DNA from: Prevotella nigrescens
GTDB lineage: Bacteria > Bacteroidota > Bacteroidia > Bacteroidales > Bacteroidaceae
Direction: 5' to 3'
DNA length: 64,000 bases
Assembly (NCBI RefSeq): GCF_031191185.1
Contig: NZ_CP133465.1
Coordinates: 430,001 to 494,000 of the forward strand
Shown: positions 10,370-57,115 of the stretch, in pieces
Layout of the letters: each line of letters begins with the position of its first letter
How positions within the stretch are numbered: position 1 is the stretch's first letter
Made by a program: the position numbers and the translations under genes
Notes under the pieces: generated by a model
Databases searched by the model: none
Told to the model about the DNA's origin: nothing
The model's input: the letters and a program-made list of their open reading frames with translations, nothing else

Positions 10370-10600
10370 GTTAGTATTCGGCATCTGCCGTCGTCGGTGT
10401 TTAGTACCTGCGATTGTAGGTATATAGTACCTGCAACCAATACCCTTGCAAGGGTATCGACAGACACCCTTGTAAGGGTATTGACTGATACCCTTACAAG
10501 GGTATTCGTCGCCGGTGCGGAATACCGACAGTTGCCGGTGCCATATACCGACAATCAAGTTGTCATAGGAGCTGTTGTCAAGGCTGCATGGTATCATTGA
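10370..10600. repeat. Palindrome-array repeat element, copy 1
   Basis: Three 18-bp palindromes of the form (a/g)tacccttNNaagggtat start at 10440, 10464 and 10488, exactly 24 bases apart, separated by 6-base spacers cgacag and tgactg. They are flanked on both sides by repeats of ggtatctgcc and gccggtgc type and by a right flank (gagctgttgtca, atcattgac) that recurs in a second copy at 56900-57115. The element fills the gap between the convergent trkH and DUF4435 genes. Frames running through it only translate the repeat and are not genes. Confidence 0.85.
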
Positions 10601-29095: not shown

Positions 29096-29285
29096 ATGTA
29101 AATATTTTTCACAAGAATATCTATTACTTAACTACCTTATTATCAATACTTTCCAAAACCTATTGTTTTACATTCTAAAAGCGTAGGTTTTGCACGGTAA
29201 AAGCGGCTCTTTTGCAACGCAAAACCTACGCTTTTGCAATGCCAAATCGAAATTACCATTTTTCTCACGAATTATCTTTACAAAA
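29096..29285 (+). repeat. Dispersed intergenic element, copy 1
   Basis: About 190 bases, starting with tgtaaatatttttc and ending with atctttacaaa. Modules: an 18-base caaaacctattg..-type hairpin, module 1 aaaagcgtaggttttgc (29177-29193), module 2 aaaagcggctcttttgc (29199-29215), and module 3 gcaaaacctacgctttt (29219-29235). Modules 1 and 3 are exact complements and form a hairpin around module 2. Lies between deoC and the convergent prenyl synthase gene. Other copies at 33301, 39777 (reverse), 42987 and a truncated one at 50410. The 570-base gap otherwise has no gene. Confidence 0.85.
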
Positions 29286-30441: not shown

Positions 30442-30530
30442 TCAAAAATTATTTTGATACAAAAATAATGAATAATATCGGTAATTATGGCATTTTTTTA
30501 GTAATTTTACCCTTAAATAATATTTTTACA

Positions 30531-33296
30531 ATGGACAAACTGTTTCTCATCGACGCTTACGCACTTATCTATCGGTCGTATTATGCCCTCATCAGAAATC
30601 CGCGTATCAACTCAAAAGGAGTGAATACATCGGCTATTATGGGTTTCTGCAACACGCTGAACGAAGTGCTGACAAAGGAAAATCCCACACACATTGCCGT
30701 GGCTTTCGACCACGGACTCACCTTCCGACACGAGGCATTCCCCGAGTATAAGGCACAAAGAGAGGAAACACCCGAAGACATAAAGCTGTCTGTTCCCTAC
30801 ATAAAGCAAATTCTTGAAGCCATGCGCATACCTATCCTGCAAGTCGATGGCTTCGAGGCGGACGACATTATCGGTACGGTGGCAACGCTGGCAGGCAGCA
30901 AGGGCATTACCACTTTTATGCTTACGCCCGACAAGGACTACGGTCAGCTTATCCGAGAGAACGTCTATATGTATCGTCCAAGGCATGGCGGAGGGTACGA
31001 TGTGGTGGGTATGAACGAAGTTGAAGACAGATACGGTATCCCTACCCCAGCCCAAGTAATCGACCTCTTGGCACTTATGGGCGACTCTGCCGACAACTTT
31101 CCGGGTTGTCCGGGTGTGGGCGAGAAGACCGCTGCAAAGCTTATCAACCAGTTTGGGTCTATCGACAATATGCTCGAACATACCGACCAGATAAAAGGAA
31201 AGCTAAGAGAGAAAGTGGAAGCTGCCGTCGATGACATAAAGATGTCGAAGTTCCTGGCAACCATTCGCACCGATGTTCCAATCAATATGGAATGGGACGA
31301 ACTGAAGATAGAACAGCCCGACGAAGACAAGCTACGCGAAATCTTCACCGAATTGGAGTTCAAAACACTCCTTAATAAATTTGTTAAAGGTAATCAAAAA
31401 GCGCAAAAAAGCGATAATTTGCAGCTCAATTTATTTGCAGAAAATGCGCCCGAAGATGCAGGCGACGCAAAAAAAGCCCCTTCCTGCAGCCTTTCAGCAG
31501 TGCCACACAATTACAAACTAATTGAGAATGAGCAAGAAGCGCGTAATGTTTGTGATTATTTCTTTACAAGAGAGTTCCTATGTTTAGACACAGAAACCAC
31601 GTCGGCGGACGCCATCGATGCAGAATTGGTGGGTTTAAGCTTCTCGGTTGCCGAAAAAGAGGCATTCTATGTAGCCGTTCCTGCTAACCGTGAAGAAGCC
31701 TTAAAGATAGTAAATATATTCAAACCACTATACGAAGACGAGTCAATTCTGAAGATTGGACAGAACATTAAATACGATTACGAAGTTCTGCACAAATATG
31801 GCGTAACGTTAAAGGGCAAGTTGTTCGACACGATGATTGCACACTATCTTATCCAACCCGAGCTTCGGCACAACATGGACTACATGGCGGAAACGCTTTT
31901 GAACTATAAAACCATTCCAATAGAAAGCCTTATCGGTGCCAAAGGGAAGCAACAACAGAAGAACATGCGCGACCTGCAGCCGAGCGAAATCTACGAGTAC
32001 GCTTGCGAAGATGCCGATATTACGCTGCAGTTGAAGCACGTGCTCGAACCGAAACTGAAGGAAGTGGAAGCCGAAAACCTATTTTGGAACATAGAAATGC
32101 CGCTCGTGCCCGTGCTCGCCGATATGGAACTGCACGGCGTACGCTTAGATACGGCTGCCTTAGAAGAAACTTCGCGCATCTTTACGCAACGCATGAACCA
32201 ATACGAACAGGAAATATACGAACTCGCAGGCGAAAGTTTCAACATCTCAAGTCCCAAGCAGGTGGGCGAAATGCTGTTCGGAAAGTTGCAGATAATGGAG
32301 AAACCGAAGAAGACAAAGACAGGACAGTATGTTACAAGCGAAGAAGTATTAGTGAGTTTGGAGAACAAACACCCCATTGTACATAAGATATTGGAATACA
32401 GAGGCATTAAAAAGCTGCTCAGCACCTATATCGATGCTTTGCCAAAACTTATCAAACCCGAGACAGGACATATACACACGTCGTTCAATCAGGCACTTAC
32501 GGCAACGGGCAGACTGTCGTCGAGCGACCCAAACTTGCAGAATATCCCCGTCAGAACAGACGACGGCAAGGAAATCCGCAAGTGTTTCATACCCGAATCT
32601 GGCTGCGAGTTCTTCTCTGCCGACTACAGTCAGATAGAACTTCGTATCATGGCGCACCTCTCGGAAGACGAAAACATGATGGAAGCCTTCCGCAAAGGGT
32701 TCGACATTCACCGTGCTACGGCTGCCAAAATATGGCACGAAGATATGGAAAACGTAACCGACACACAGCGAAAGAAAGCCAAACAAGCCAATTTTGGCAT
32801 CATCTACGGCATTACTACTTACGGTTTGGCACAGCGAATGGACATTCCGAACGGCGAAGCAAAAGAGCTGATAGACGGATACTTCAACACTTTCCCGAAG
32901 GTAAAGGCTTATATGGAGCGTGCGAAAGAAGAAGCACGGAAGAAGGGTTACGCCGAAACCATCTTCCACCGTCGCCGTTACCTTGCCGACATCAACAGTC
33001 GGAACGCAACTGTAAGGGGGTTTGCCGAGCGCAATGCCATCAACGCCCCTATACAAGGTTCGGAAGCCGACATCATAAAGGTGGCTATGGTGCGCATCTG
33101 GCAACGTTTCAAGCGCGAAAACATACGCTCGAAAATGATTTTACAGGTACACGACGAACTCAACTTCTCGGTATTTCCCGACGAAAAAGAACGAGTAGAG
33201 CGCATCGTGATAGAAGAAATGCAGAATGCCTACCCGCTCAACGTTCCCCTGATAGCCGATGCTGGTTGGGGAGAAAATTGGCTCGAAGCGCACTAA
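30531..33296 (+). CDS. polA: DNA polymerase I
   Basis: A 921-residue enzyme for repair and Okazaki fragment processing. The N-terminal 5'-3' exonuclease domain covers about 1-290 (DAYALIYRSYYAL, DGFEADDIIG). The 3'-5' exonuclease appears active: CLDTETTSAD, then GQNIKYDYEVL, then YACEDADITLQ. The polymerase domain has DYSQIELRIMAHLS, KQANFGIIYGIT and VHDELNF motifs. The ATG at 30531 is used since the preceding 21 residues do not match the family. Immediately after the stop lies dispersed element copy 2. Confidence 0.97.
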   Translation: MDKLFLIDAYALIYRSYYALIRNPRINSKGVNTSAIMGFCNTLNEVLTKENPTHIAVAFDHGLTFRHEAFPEYKAQREETPEDIKLSVPYIKQILEAMRIPILQVDGFEADDIIGTVATLAGSKGITTFMLTPDKDYGQLIRENVYMYRPRHGGGYDVVGMNEVEDRYGIPTPAQVIDLLALMGDSADNFPGCPGVGEKTAAKLINQFGSIDNMLEHTDQIKGKLREKVEAAVDDIKMSKFLATIRTDVPINMEWDELKIEQPDEDKLREIFTELEFKTLLNKFVKGNQKAQKSDNLQLNLFAENAPEDAGDAKKAPSCSLSAVPHNYKLIENEQEARNVCDYFFTREFLCLDTETTSADAIDAELVGLSFSVAEKEAFYVAVPANREEALKIVNIFKPLYEDESILKIGQNIKYDYEVLHKYGVTLKGKLFDTMIAHYLIQPELRHNMDYMAETLLNYKTIPIESLIGAKGKQQQKNMRDLQPSEIYEYACEDADITLQLKHVLEPKLKEVEAENLFWNIEMPLVPVLADMELHGVRLDTAALEETSRIFTQRMNQYEQEIYELAGESFNISSPKQVGEMLFGKLQIMEKPKKTKTGQYVTSEEVLVSLENKHPIVHKILEYRGIKKLLSTYIDALPKLIKPETGHIHTSFNQALTATGRLSSSDPNLQNIPVRTDDGKEIRKCFIPESGCEFFSADYSQIELRIMAHLSEDENMMEAFRKGFDIHRATAAKIWHEDMENVTDTQRKKAKQANFGIIYGITTYGLAQRMDIPNGEAKELIDGYFNTFPKVKAYMERAKEEARKKGYAETIFHRRRYLADINSRNATVRGFAERNAINAPIQGSEADIIKVAMVRIWQRFKRENIRSKMILQVHDELNFSVFPDEKERVERIVIEEMQNAYPLNVPLIADAGWGENWLEAH

Positions 33297-33300
33297 AATG

Positions 33301-33490
33301 GTGTAAATATTTTTCGCAAGCGCATCTATTGCGTAACTATCTTGTTATCAGCGCATTGCAAAACCTATTGTTTTGCATTCCAAAAGCGTAGGTTTTGCAC
33401 GGTAAAAGCGGCTCTTTTGCAACGCAAAACCTACGCTTTCGCAATGCCAAATCGAAATTACCGTTTTTCGTTGGAATTATTTTTACAAAA
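33301..33490 (+). repeat. Dispersed intergenic element, copy 2
   Basis: Starts gtgtaaatatttttc five bases past the polA stop. Module 1 aaaagcgtaggttttgc (33382-33398), module 2 aaaagcggctcttttgc (33404-33420), module 3 gcaaaacctacgctttc (33424-33440): same arrangement as copy 1. Similarity to copy 4 continues to about 33590. Fills the 360-base gap between polA and the U32 gene. Confidence 0.85.
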
Positions 33491-39776: not shown

Positions 39777-39967
39777 TTTTGTAAAAATAATTTATAGGAA
39801 AAACGATAATTTCGATTTGGCATTGCGAAAGCGGCTCTTTTGCGATGCAAAACCTACGCTTTTACCGTGCAAAACAGCCGCTTTTGGAACGCAAAACAAT
39901 AGGTTTTACAACGCATTGATAACTAACGAGTTACACAAGAGTCACGCTTGCGAAAAACTTTTACACT
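39777..39967 (-). repeat. Dispersed intergenic element, copy 3 (reverse)
   Basis: Same element on the opposite strand. Read on the minus strand: module 1 aaaagcggctgttttgc (complement of 39869-39885), module 2 aaaagcgtaggttttgc (39847-39863) and module 3 gcaaaagagccgctttc (39827-39843). Here the outer arms carry the ggctc-type core and the middle carries gtagg, the reverse of copies 1 and 2; outer arms still pair with one mismatch. It is in the 640-base gap 39684-40318, upstream of mutS; the rest of the gap shows no gene. Confidence 0.8.
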
Positions 39968-40318: not shown

Positions 40319-42985
40319 ATGGCAAAAGACAACAAAGGGCTCACTCCGATGATGCGACAATTCTTTTCGATGAAAGAAAAGCACCCCGATGCGTTAATGC
40401 TCTTTAGGTGTGGCGACTTCTACGAAACGTATTGCGACGATGCCATAGAAGCTTCTAAGATACTCGGCATAACGCTGACACGCCGAAACAACGGTGCGGC
40501 AGCGGGCGACGAGATGGCTGGATTTCCTCATCACGCACTCGATACCTTCTTGCCAAAGCTTATTCGTGCTGGAAAACGCGTAGCAATATGCGACCAACTC
40601 GAAGACCCGAAGAAGAAGCGCGAAGCTTTGAAGGGCAAACGGGGCTTGTCTGCCGAAGACAAAATGGTGCGACGAGGCATAACGGAACTTGTTACGCCTG
40701 GCGTTGCTATGGGTGACAACGTGCTGAACTATAAGGAAAACAACTTCTTGGCTGCCGTTCACTTCGGCAAAGGTTCTTGCGGTGTGAGCTTTCTCGACAT
40801 TTCGACAGGCGAATTTCTCACCGGTGAGGGCACGTTCGACTATGTTGAAAAGCTCATTGGCAACTTTTCGCCAAAGGAAGTGCTGTACGACCGTGCCCGA
40901 AAGTCTGACTTTGAACGCCATTTCGGTACACGCCTGTGTGTGTATGAAATGGAAGACTGGGTGTTTACCGACCTTTCTGCACGCCATAAACTGCTGAAAC
41001 ACTTCGGAACAAAGAACCTGAAGGGTTTCGGTGTAGACCATCTGAACAACGGAGTGATAGCTGCTGGAGCTATCATGCAGTACTTGGAACTTACCCAGCA
41101 CACAAACATCAACCACATAACGTCGCTCGCTCGCATCGAAGAAGAGAAGTATGTGCGACTCGACCGCTTCACCATTCGTTCCTTGGAACTTGTCGCGCCC
41201 ATGCAGGAGGACGGTTCGTCGCTGCTCAACGTAGTAGACAGAACCATCACACCAATGGGTGGCAGAATGCTGCATCGCTGGCTTGTGTTCCCATTGAAGG
41301 ACGTAAAGCCCATTAACGAGCGTTTGGACATAGTGGAATACTACTTCCGCGAGCCCGATTTCCGCCAATGCCTGAACGACCAACTCCACCGTATGGGCGA
41401 CTTGGAACGCATCATTTCAAAGGTGGCAGCAGGCAGAGTGTCGCCGAGAGAGGTAGTTCAGCTGAAGATAGCCTTACGTGCGATACAGCCAATGAAGACC
41501 GCTTGCCTCTATGCGAACAACGAAGCCTTGAAGCGGGTAGGGGAACAGCTGAACCTCTGCGAGTCTATTCGCGACCGAATAGAGCAGGAAATAAAGCCCG
41601 ACCCACCACACTTGGTTGCCAAAGGCGACGTGATTGCACACGGTTTCAACGCCGAATTGGACGAATTGCGCTCCATTCGCGACAACGGAAAGCAGGTTTT
41701 GCTCGACATTCAGGAGAAAGAAGCGGCTCAAACGGGCATCAGTTCGCTGAAGATAGGCTTCAACAACGTTTTCGGATACTACCTTGAGGTGCGCAATACA
41801 TTTAAAGACAAGGTACCTGCCGACTGGATTCGCAAGCAGACCCTTGCGCAGGCAGAACGCTACATTACCCCTGAACTGAAGGAATACGAAGCCAAAATAC
41901 TTGGTGCCGACGAGAAAATACTCGCTCTCGAAGCGCGTCTTTTCAACGAATTGGTGCAGGATATGCAGGAGTTTATTCCTCAAATACAAATCAACGCCAA
42001 CCTTGTGGCACGCCTCGACTGTCTGTTGGCATTCGCAAACATTGCCGAAGAAAACAAGTATGTGCGCCCCATGGTAGACGACAGTATGGTGATTGACATA
42101 AAGAAAGGCCGCCACCCCGTAATAGAAACCCAACTGCCACTTGGCGAACCATACATACCAAACGATGTATATCTCGACAACGAGCAACAGCAGATTATGA
42201 TGATAACAGGTCCGAATATGGCTGGTAAATCGGCTCTGTTGCGTCAAACCGCACTCATAGTACTATTGGCGCAGATAGGTAGTTTCGTCCCAGCAGAGGG
42301 CGCAAGAATCGGTTTGGTCGATAAAGTTTTCACACGAGTGGGTGCTTCCGACAATATTTCGCTCGGAGAATCTACTTTTATGGTGGAAATGACTGAGGCA
42401 TCGAACATTCTGAACAATGTTACACCCCGCTCGTTGGTACTCTTCGACGAGCTGGGACGTGGCACAAGCACCTACGACGGCATCAGCATAGCGTGGGCAA
42501 TCGTAGAGTATCTGCACGAACAACCACGTGCTGCGGCACGTACACTCTTCGCAACGCACTACCACGAACTGAACGAAATGGCAAAGAACTTCCGCCGAAT
42601 AAAGAACTTCAACGTATCTGTGAAAGAGGTGGACGGCAAGATTATCTTCGTGAGAAAGTTGGAACGAGGCGGCAGCGAACACTCTTTCGGTATTCACGTA
42701 GCCGACATTGCAGGTATGCCAAAGTCGATTGTGAAGCGTGCGAACGTCGTCTTAAAAGAATTGGAAGCCGACAATGCGCAGGTAGGCAGTGTAGGAAAGC
42801 CGTCGGCAGAGAAGCTTGAGCAGAGTAGGGAAGGGGTTCAGCTTTCGTTCTTCCAACTCGACGACCCTGTACTGACGCAGATACACGACGAAATCATAGG
42901 CTTGGACATCAACAACCTTACACCCGTTGAAGCATTGAACAAGCTCAACGAAATCAAGCGAATTGTACTTCCGAACAGCAAATAA
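40319..42985 (+). CDS. mutS: DNA mismatch repair protein MutS
   Basis: Recognises mismatches and starts repair with MutL. The 888-residue protein has the mismatch-binding N-terminus (CGDFYETY with the wedge Phe-x-Glu), connector, lever and clamp domains, and the ATPase: Walker [15 protein letters not shown], then [21 protein letters not shown] and Walker [17 protein letters not shown], ending with a helix-turn-helix dimer part. Full family length. Dispersed element copy 4 starts right after the stop. Confidence 0.97.
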
Positions 42986-42986
42986 A

Positions 42987-43176
42987 GTGTAAATATTTTT
43001 CAAAGAGATATCTATTGTCTAACTATCTCTTTATCAACACTTTGCAAAACCTATTGTTTTGCATTCCAAAAGCGGCTCTTTTGCACGGTAAAAGCGTAGG
43101 TTTTGCAGCGCAAAAGAGCCGCTTTCGCAATGCCAAAGCGCAGTTATCATTTTTAAGAGAATTATCTTTACAAAGT
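42987..43176 (+). repeat. Dispersed intergenic element, copy 4
   Basis: Starts gtgtaaatatttttc at the mutS stop. Module 1 aaaagcggctcttttgc (43068-43084), module 2 aaaagcgtaggttttgc (43090-43106) and module 3 gcaaaagagccgctttc (43110-43126): outer arms of ggctc type, middle gtagg type, like copy 3. Downstream similarity to copy 2 extends to about 43255. Fills the gap to lgt, where no gene is seen. Confidence 0.85.
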
Positions 43177-50304: not shown

Positions 50305-50409
50305 TATAGTTTATTTTACACTATAATTAAAACTAAATAATAATACCTACTGCTAAACTAATCGGCACAAACTCCTACCCATACACCTTGCTTTACAGAA
50401 GTAGAAATA

Positions 50410-50500
50410 GTATAAAGAATTTTTCAAAGTATATCTATCGTGTAACATCTTCTTTATCAACGCATCACAAAACCTATTGTTTTACCGTGCGAAAAATATT
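50410..50500 (+). repeat. Dispersed intergenic element, copy 5 (truncated)
   Basis: The left part matches copies 1-4 (agaatttttcaa, tatctat, gtgtaac, acaaaacctattgtttt), then it breaks off into ccgtgcgaaaaat without modules 1-3. It lies in the 400-base gap between the glycosyltransferase and the IS. Position again just past a gene end. Confidence 0.7.
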
Positions 50501-50693: not shown

Positions 50694-52123
50694 AGTCATC
50701 CCTTAAAAACTATATTTCAGCATAAAGCTTGTACTGACAAGCTCTATGCTGATTCTTTTTATAAGGTCCAAAAGAACTCTCATAGCTCTTTTGAAGTTAT
50801 ATGCTGCTGCAGCTAATAATACATTGATAGCATCTCCTTTCACACCTTTATAAAAGTTGCGAGATAATCGGTGGTCTGCTTTAAGATGTCCTATTGTTGG
50901 TTCTATACCTGCTCGTTTACAAAATAGTTTGTGTTTCTTTCTCTTTTGGTAGTAGCTGTCTTTAGCTTTAGGAACGTCTGGAATGAGTATCTTTGTCTGC
51001 CCAATCTGCTTTACACCTCTATACCCTCTATCTCCTGCTAACTTATCAACCTGCTTTCCTGTCATCCTTTGGATTTGTTCTAACGTCTTTTCGATAGTAT
51101 GCCCATCATATTCATTCCTAAAAGAACATGCACCAAGAATAAGTCCTGACCATGAGCGAAGAATAGATACTTTATTGCCAAACTCATATTGCTTATGCTC
51201 CTTACCTTTGCTGATACAAACTACATCTGGTTCGTGCAGAGAATATACTTTATTCTTTGACTTCCTATTCTGAGAAAGAACTCTGTAATATAGCTCAAAC
51301 ATCTCCTCATATCCTTTCCTTCCCCCAAGATTACGCTCTAGCTCTCTTACCAATCTTCCTGCTATGGTCTTCAGTTGTCTATCTGCCTTAAGAGCTTTCT
51401 TACGATTCTTGGGATGATTACGAAAACGTTGGGAACGGTAAATGCCTTTCAAGGTACGCGTATAACTCTGTCGTAGAGGAAGACAATTGTCATGAACTAT
51501 CTTCAGAACGTTTTTGATTATCTTTTTATGCAACTTCGCATCTGTAGGATAGGTTATATTCTTCTCCTGCACGGTAGAATCAATGAAAGCCGTATCAAAA
51601 TGATCTTCGTTATCATGGTCGGTATTAACGCGGATGCTCTCTGCTAATATTAATTCCATACCTTTTTCACCGATACGATTTCTGAAGTGAACTAACTCGG
51701 AAGCGTCACAGGGTTGTTTGGGCATAAATTCAAGTCCACCACAGAAATATTGGTAGTAAGCATTCTCACTCCATTGAGAAACCACCATTTCATCTGACAC
51801 ATTACGCAAATGTTTTAAAATTAAAAGACCACACAGCAAGCGAATTGGATGAGCAGGGCGGCCGTTAGTGCTGCAATACAAAGGAGAAAAAGCATTTTCA
51901 AAACATTCCCAATTAATCTTATTACTAAGTTGGAAAAGGGGATGTTCATGGCTAAGCATGTCCTCTAGAGAAGAGAACATAGAGAGCTGTTTAGATGTGC
52001 GTTTAAGCATAAATATCTGCAAGAATTATAGTATAAAGGTACAAAAACTTGCAGATATAAACAAATAATTTACAGGATAATATACTATGAATCAGAGGAA
52101 TATTAGGTTTATAAGGGAGGACT
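50694..52123 (-). mobile_element. IS5/IS1182-type insertion sequence, complete
   Basis: Inverted repeats of about 18-22 bases frame the element: agtcatcccttaaaaac at the left and the complement of gtttataagggaggact at the right (near-perfect, two or so mismatches). AATT is directly repeated outside both ends (50690-50693 and 52124-52127), consistent with a 4-bp target duplication, although AATT is itself a palindrome. Length 1430 bp. The transposase stop codon lies within the left repeat. Confidence 0.85.
50703..52022 (-). CDS. IS5/IS1182-family transposase
   Basis: A 439-residue DDE transposase, intact. The first Asp is in FIDSTVQEKNITYPTDAKL, the second in KLAGDRGYRG, and the C-terminal Glu in CKRAGIEPTIGHLKADHRLSRNF. 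The N-terminal DUF772-like domain (RPAHPIRLLCGLLILKHL) fits the family. The frame starts slightly upstream of a better ATG (MLKRTSKQ) near 52010, which may be the true start. Confidence 0.93.
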   Translation of the reverse strand: MQIFMLKRTSKQLSMFSSLEDMLSHEHPLFQLSNKINWECFENAFSPLYCSTNGRPAHPIRLLCGLLILKHLRNVSDEMVVSQWSENAYYQYFCGGLEFMPKQPCDASELVHFRNRIGEKGMELILAESIRVNTDHDNEDHFDTAFIDSTVQEKNITYPTDAKLHKKIIKNVLKIVHDNCLPLRQSYTRTLKGIYRSQRFRNHPKNRKKALKADRQLKTIAGRLVRELERNLGGRKGYEEMFELYYRVLSQNRKSKNKVYSLHEPDVVCISKGKEHKQYEFGNKVSILRSWSGLILGACSFRNEYDGHTIEKTLEQIQRMTGKQVDKLAGDRGYRGVKQIGQTKILIPDVPKAKDSYYQKRKKHKLFCKRAGIEPTIGHLKADHRLSRNFYKGVKGDAINVLLAAAAYNFKRAMRVLLDLIKRISIELVSTSFMLKYSF

Positions 52124-56899: not shown

Positions 56900-57115
56900 A
56901 TTGTCAGTCTATATATGCCTTTGTTGCAGGTATTCAATATCTTCTATCAATACCCTTGTTAGGGTATTGACTGATACCCTTGTGAGGGTATTGACAGACA
57001 CCCTTGTGAGGGTATTCATTATCGGTACGTAATACTGACGGGTGCAGGTGTTACATACCAATAATCGAAGCATAAGGGAAGCTGTTGTCAGAGCTGTATC
57101 CATCATTGACATACT
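56900..57115. repeat. Palindrome-array repeat element, copy 2
   Basis: Three 18-bp palindromes start at 56950, 56974 and 56998, exactly 24 bases apart with 6-base spacers tgactg and tgacag. Flanks match copy 1 at 10370-10600, including gagctgttgtca and atcattgac-like sequences to the right. It fills the 340-base gap between the outer membrane receptor and the DUF2807 gene. Confidence 0.85.

Follow-up and report, generated by a model that had tools for sequence, protein, structure and literature searches.

A modular intergenic repeat downstream of polA

What is the 190-bp intergenic sequence that follows polA in this part of the Prevotella nigrescens chromosome, and how have the cores of its palindromic modules come to differ from copy to copy? 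The window, which is the whole stretch analyzed (64,000 nucleotides; G000:C2:430001-494000, with G000 denoting the 2.68-Mb, six-contig genome itself), contains the focal copy at 33301..33490 (+) and three other full copies at 29096..29285 (+), 39777..39966 (-), and 42987..43174 (+), which match the focal copy with E values of 7e-65, 1e-50, and 3e-43 and thus exclude chance similarity. Judged by its length, placement, and abundance, the repeat almost certainly corresponds to PINSR, which was published in 2015 with a length of 188 bp and was left unexplained there, its function being unknown (PMC4755523). PINSR itself is therefore already known, but its modular anatomy, the exchange between copies, the link to insertion sequence-like units, and the wider frame to which it belongs appear to be new.

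The four full copies, numbered here by position, are organized as the sequence-only reading described them. They start with gtgtaaatatttttc, or with the variants atgtaaatatttttc in copy 1 and gtgtaaaagtttttc in copy 3, followed by a caaaacctattg hairpin and three modules. Two of them begin directly behind stop codons, the focal copy (copy 2) 4 bases past that of polA (30468-33296) and copy 4 one base past that of mutS (40319-42985). Among the matches listed for the MutS protein, the best named ones are from Prevotella. The center of the element is an array of 15-bp AAAA-N7-TTTT units, usually four, set in an A4-N7-T4-N7 frame with a 22-bp period. In the focal copy these are m0 (AAAA-CCTATTG-TTTT; 33360..33374, +), which forms a small hairpin, m1 (AAAA-GCGTAGG-TTTT; 33382..33396, +), which is the left arm of the outer stem, the middle module m2 (AAAA-GCGGCTC-TTTT; 33404..33418, +), and the right arm m3 (AAAA-CCTACGC-TTT; 33426..33439, +), which is complementary to m1 and forms with it a palindromic stem of 16-17 bp. 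Copies 1 and 2 are of the TAGG/GGCT/CCTA type, with m1/m2/m3 cores GCGTAGG/GCGGCTC/CCTACGC, whereas copies 3 and 4 are of the GGCT/TAGG/AGCC type, with cores GCGGCTG/GCGTAGG/GAGCCGC and GCGGCTC/GCGTAGG/GAGCCGC, respectively; the single outer mismatch reported for copy 3 is present, its m1 and m3 being complementary at 6/7 positions. A fifth, truncated copy (L041; about 50400..50494, +) consists of the leader and m0 and lies near a transposase gene (50703-52022, -; DUF772/DDE_Tnp_1), and one of its flanks corresponds, in a related genome, G100, to sequence adjoining a near-full copy that sits at a breakpoint.

Over 35 copies from G100, conservation is weak from position -30, strong from 0 to 190, and weak again to about +205; the weakly conserved upstream strip of the G100 profile corresponds to 33271..33300 (+) and in the focal copy overlaps the end of polA. 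The element ends, GTGTAAATATTTTTC and GAATTATCTTTACAAA, form a weak inverted pair in the sequence, and many of the invariant columns in an alignment of 70 copies (A1) fall within the A and T tetrads. Among 93 arrays of at least three units in G000, G100, and a further relative, G017, 77 have four units, 12 read as three, and four as five. The leader contains a motif (33346-33358) whose place is conserved and which matches WATCAANNNNTTR, taken here to be the IHF consensus, exactly in 29 of the 70 copies, the focal copy not among them. Seven copies (L006, L010, L017, L022, L026, L027, and L028) have a similar stretch past the tail that by eye resembles the 3' end of a coding sequence on the opposite strand.

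Copy number and sampling

The repeat occurs in at least 40 places in its own genome, 29 of them nearly full-length, with 40 of 118 first-look candidates scored. Profile scans of stretches picked around the window and its G100 counterpart, independently of module type, gave 25 matches (17 near-full) in 454 kb of G000 and 42 matches (35 near-full) in 400 kb of G100, at a cutoff of 25 bits where decoy matches to reversed sequence reach at most 20.5 bits. Five stretches together contain 107 profile matches, of which 82 are near-full, 79 are classed for gene context, and 78 enter the core-pairing count. Repeat copies carry labels of the L001 type, or g0_, g1_, and g2a_ for those from G000, G100, and G017, respectively. 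Within the genus, six of 299 genomes, including this one, have matches at an E value of 1e-8 with two candidates scored in each, and in two of these six (G184 and G133) the match is limited to the module region. Another dispersed hairpin repeat, ATACCCTTGCAAGGGTAT, is present in the window at 10440-10506 and 56950-57016 in pairs spaced 24 bp apart.

Pairing of the module arms

The outer arms of the array are coupled. Across A1, which holds 70 copies of exactly 190 nt from three genomes, the m1:m3 helix has a covariation of 0.174 compared to 0.077 in shuffled alignments, and 0 of 500 shuffles, which leave shared ancestry in, reach the observed value; 86.3% of cells are paired, and nine pairs are changed on both sides. 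The expected coupling of modules 1 and 3 is thus borne out in other genomic copies. Most of it comes from a switch of a single block of three bases, TAG to GCT, which is carried by 25-26 of the 70 copies, and the arm changes are mostly of this kind and not a series of independent compensations. The middle triplet is broken in 12-14 of the 70 copies, and a further pair (columns 92/130) is mismatched in 25. The inner helix, m2:m3, was rejected as a conserved helix, as its covariation in A1 (0.068) is no higher than that of the shuffles (0.075). A hairpin in the leader was likewise rejected, with no covariation in APC-corrected mutual information over a set of 134 copies that includes some picked for similarity to the focal copy.

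The G100 copies, a sample independent of module type, pair m1 with m3 at 6/7 positions or better in 29 of 34 cases and m2 with m3 in five, and in the own genome L004 and L034 have m1 paired to m2, and L003 and L039 have m2 paired to m3. The proposal that the outer pair stays complementary in both types consequently holds in part: the coupling is there, but with the m2:m3 copies and the broken triplets it is a strong tendency and not a law.

Some pair among m1, m2, and m3 matches at 6/7 in 34/34 copies of G100, 27/29 of G017, and 11/15 of G000, compared to shuffled means of 25.1, 21.6, and 5.5 (0, 3, and 3 of 2000 shuffles reach the observed values), but m1 and m2 are mostly of two different types, so that nearly any m3 pairs with one of them and this count says little alone. 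With 7/7 matching, any pair is found in 8/15 copies of G000 compared to 2.4 in shuffles (0/2000), in 20/29 of G017 compared to 14.4 (25/2000), and in 16/34 of G100 compared to 14.5 (719/2000); the corresponding values for m1:m3 alone are 4/15 and 0.95 (10/2000), 12/29 and 8.1 (114/2000), and 12/34 and 9.3 (344/2000). Pairing does not exceed the within-genome shuffle in the other array-bearing genomes G184 (7/23 compared to 7.9), G010 (3/6 compared to 1.8, reached in 120 of 500 shuffles), G012 (1/3 compared to 1.1), and G294 (0/2 compared to 1.3).

Mosaic copies and chromosomal breakpoints

Copies of PINSR are mosaics of one another, in which module blocks, leaders, and tails are reassorted. 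For example, g0_13 consists of the leader and modules of g1_13 joined to the tail of g1_9, and g1_12 and g1_13, which are 1.4 kb apart, have a common leader (95%) and tail (94%) but different module blocks; these copies support the earlier suggestion of gene conversion among hairpins. L033 is a leader-leader hybrid and L027 a tail-tail hybrid, as expected from exchange inside a palindromic center, with none of either kind among the 42 G100 matches, and in L007 the middle module is inverted in place. Core swapping is not frequent, however, since 19 of 41 pairs with leader identity of at least 0.86 differ in a core by at least 3 bases (drawn from the 134 copies that include some picked for focal similarity) compared to 82% of random pairs, and since of seven orthologous copies that are colinear on both sides, five keep their module types (g1_2/g0_15, g1_23/g0_8, g1_24/g0_7, g1_25/g0_6, and g1_32/g0_4) and two differ widely (g1_7/g0_22 and g1_0/g0_0).

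The repeats are also common where gene order changes between G000 and G100. With the elements masked and blastn matches chained, the two stretches resolve into 33 colinear blocks, averaging about 8 kb, with 32 breakpoints, and an element of at least 40 bits is present at 21 of these. At tight breakpoints (gap below 1 kb) an element is present in 15 of 22 cases; the proportion among colinear intergenic regions is 13 of 84 (Fisher P = 3e-6) or, with only regions of at least 250 bp as the control, 11 of 36 (P = 0.007). Breakpoints account for 23 of the 41 G100 elements of at least 40 bits and the interiors of colinear blocks for 13; among the 64 block ends in G000, 15 have an element within 600 bases. 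Flank mapping of 42 G100 elements agrees with this count: 17 have flanks at two G000 places, seven are occupied in both genomes, two scored as empty, and 10 had one flank mapped, unmapped parts being expected as the G000 stretch covers 454 of the 2105 kb of its contig. Inversions between PINSRs have also been reported in some cases within a single species (PMC4755523). The association is compatible with homologous and enzyme-directed exchange alike and does not say which of the two is at work.

Insertion sequence-like units around some copies

Some copies in the two relatives sit in larger units with insertion sequence-like ends. The list of empty sites has 11 rows representing seven elements, and of five sites that were aligned, two are clean and three are ragged. 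The clean ones are of G017 copies g2a_7 and g2a_12, whose inserts, roughly 450 and 350 bp long, respectively, are absent from G100; AACAAT flanks the g2a_12 insert on either side and is present as a single copy in the empty G100 site, and the target repeat of g2a_7 is ambiguous. No clean empty site of this kind was seen for G000 copies. The ragged sites are those of g1_1, g1_17, and g2a_12 in comparison with G000. Both inserts carry ACGTGAGTTCGG-type motifs, but the larger unit around the repeat contains a third such motif in its interior, and each clean insert has one boundary that is displaced from a motif by about 10-13 bases. With up to 4/18 mismatches and gene-internal matches left out, the end motif is near eight of 42 G100 elements and 13 of 40 G017 elements, but near 0 of 25 elements in G000 at the same mismatch limit, so that ends of this type lend no support to mobility of the window's own copies.

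G100 also contains 1.02-kb insertion sequences, taken here to be of the IS982 family, with ends ACGTGAGTTCGATATAAG that nearly match the unit motifs, a transposase matching DDE_Tnp_1_3, and target repeats of 7 and 8 bases in two copies. A relative in G006 has ends ACGTGAGTTCGGYGTAAG, which are closer to those of the PINSR units. The own genome has both intact and broken relatives, with 51-57% identity over the longer matches; a broken one, L370, has similar ends, and an intact one, L377, has different ends. ISPi1 is described as ISPg3-like with a 7-bp duplication (PMC4755523), and from this published description we infer that the G100 insertion sequence is ISPi1.

Interpretation and alternative explanations

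Taken together, PINSR is probably a nonautonomous dispersed or mobile repeat, with recombination between copies taking place in its palindromic array. Leader and tail strips flank an array of usually four AAAA-7-TTTT units with the m1/m3 palindromic stem, and dispersal would occur through a transposase acting in trans on the larger units with insertion sequence ends. Once dispersed, the copies may undergo homologous recombination, gene conversion, or template switching within their palindromic arrays, and such exchange would keep the arms matched as a block while swapping core sets and rearranging the chromosome. If this is correct, gene order is being scrambled by PINSR, a palindromic array that is itself mobile.

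A selected structured RNA, such as a 3' untranslated region stabilizer or a small RNA transcribed from leader to tail, in which selection keeps the arms paired, would also account for the coupling of m1 and m3, and it would agree with a strong predicted fold (z of -6.1 on the plus strand) and with a variation of 3.4% per site in modules 1-3 compared to 16% in the leader. However, the other strand folds well too (z of -4.7), the leader is without a covarying hairpin, and the mismatches at columns 92/130 and the block-switch character of the arm changes do not favor such selection. A first count of substitutions in modules 1-3, over 130 copies that include some picked for focal similarity, was asymmetric (C>T, 93; G>A, 28), and G-U-tolerant changes exceed others in the spacers (106 compared to 57) and slightly in the cores (17 compared to 9), but once the CCGTAGG core class is separated, a small excess is left in the cores, and that in the spacers falls at few positions, whose reverse-complement equivalents also vary; the reading of this asymmetry as RNA selection was set aside. 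Rfam matches in the window at gathering score are to rRNA and tRNA only, with none on the element, and the structured RNA that the sequence-only reading raised is overall unlikely. Placement is similarly equivocal. By a simple open reading frame caller, none of the 82 near-full copies from the stretches scanned is inside a called gene, and 79 classed copies fall in 34 convergent, 36 tandem, and nine divergent regions, compared to 107, 316, and 105 of 528 background intergenic regions. The preference for gene ends is thus real, and it is compatible either with neutral avoidance of promoters or with a role at 3' ends, including that of a bidirectional intrinsic terminator, for which a palindrome facing at least one gene 3' end in 70 of the 79 copies would be well placed. 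Nonetheless, the outer stem is followed after m3 by TTTCGCAATGCC with no T run, on which ground the intrinsic terminator was dismissed as very unlikely, and by eye at least g1_0, and less clearly g1_1, have a separate hairpin with Ts between the gene and the element. Moreover, arrays with the same frame in G184 favor divergent regions (12/22 compared to 23/129), so the convergent bias of PINSR is not a property of the frame.

Site-specific recombination, in which a recombinase would use each AAAA-N7-TTTT unit as its site and the 7 bp as the crossover region, would explain the inverted arms around a 7-bp core, the small vocabulary of cores in each genome with cores in both orientations, and the elements at breakpoints; the units may also resemble tyrosine-recombinase sites of Bacteroides, which have a 7-bp spacer. 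Such a crossover demands that the cores match between recombining copies, and unequal exchange should alter the number of units, yet four is the number in most arrays, and in g0_13 any point from the modules to the tail is compatible with the crossover. Overall, this reading is unlikely. A repeat spread by a RAYT (TnpA_REP) transposase is extremely unlikely. REP and BIME elements are intergenic palindromic repeats of high copy number associated with RAYT transposases, and PINSR is likewise short, palindromic, intergenic, and abundant, but it consists of a 22-bp A/T-framed array, and a search for Pfam Y1_Tnp gave nothing in G000, G100, G017, or G184; the proposed check for a REP-type transposase is therefore negative in these genomes, and membership in this group was discounted. 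Y1_Tnp is present in three of 12 array-rich and six of 12 array-poor genomes searched.

Relationship to known repeats

The element described here and PINSR as published, with its tens to hundreds of copies, are alike in length (188-190 bp), intergenic location, high copy number, and occurrence at some inversion ends (PMC4755523). PINSR as published is restricted to the P. intermedia/nigrescens clade, with which the six matching genomes of 299 may be compatible. The published account, which compares strains of one species, gives PINSR no terminal inverted repeats and calls it 'distinct from a MITE', whereas motifs resembling insertion sequence ends lie near some copies here and the comparison is between species; its passages on PINSR are also without the internal modules, core swapping, and hybrids that are all found here (PMC4755523). 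In the portions of the literature searched, there is no description of a 22-bp palindromic intergenic tandem repeat in Prevotella besides PINSR itself.

The BrickBuilt MITE of Porphyromonas gingivalis is organized similarly, with a leader, a short-period repeat, and a tail in intergenic regions, and its period of 23 nt is close to the 22 bp seen here (Klein et al. 2015, PMC4596501). However, its repeat consensus (AGAYCATARTATCCTCTCRTRTG) and end (CCGAAAGGTCTC) are unlike those of PINSR, a difference on which BrickBuilt membership was rejected, and its unit number ranges from 1 to 22.8, compared to the four units of most PINSR arrays (PMC4596501). MITE293 and MITE700 are noted in the same source to share ends with ISPg3 (PMC4596501). 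PINSR may be like IS982-group MITEs in the ACGTGAGTTCGG-type ends beside or around some G100 and G017 copies, which resemble those of the 1.02-kb DDE insertion sequences in G100 and G006, and is unlike them in that 34/42 G100, 27/40 G017, and 25/25 G000 sampled elements are without the motif.

The 22-bp frame beyond PINSR

Other members of the genus have the A4-N7-T4-N7 frame as well, combined with different cores and flanks. When spacings from 4 to 11 are compared, exact (7,7) spacing is in clear excess in the stretches taken from six of seven genomes, as in G184 (50 compared to a mean of 0.22) and G010 (11 compared to 0.11), where the arrays shown are without PINSR flanks; the 100 kb of G012 has none. 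These stretches are on contigs with known matches, those of G294 and in part G010 lying around the matches, and thus give no estimate of density, with the G294 contrast inflated. At least 10 two-unit matches are present in 41 of 299 genus genomes, including this one, a number in which overlaps are counted repeatedly and some matches may be low-complexity sequence; the backward control also matches long arrays and so does not serve as a negative control. The arrays in G184 (G184:C82:1-298800, L323-L337) represent an unrelated dispersed element with its own leader and tail, common to most of 15 aligned arrays, and have five units in 14 of 23 cases. Core vocabularies differ between genomes.

It is possible, though doubtful, that PINSR is one lineage's version of genus-wide arrays in which the frame is conserved (AAAA-N7-TTTT-N7, with an A-tract every 11 bp and two helical turns per unit) and not the sequence, such that species would differ in their cores, leaders, and tails through turnover but keep the exact spacing, with cores recurring in both orientations. 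Arrays of this kind might be read by a protein or act as recombination or cruciform sites, and would then be programmed joints in the chromosome. The frame provides a simple search pattern, and it raises the question of what reads or makes a 22-bp A4/T4 frame with free 7-mers.

Outside the genus, five of 198 genomes of the order, one of them the own genome, match a three-unit pattern. Matches in G375, G377, and G479 resemble low-complexity A/T sequence or are single, and those in G481, from another family of the order, are array-like. The G481 arrays (L347, L351, L355, and L358) have the same 22-bp frame, with cores such as GTCTAAC and GTCCAAC.
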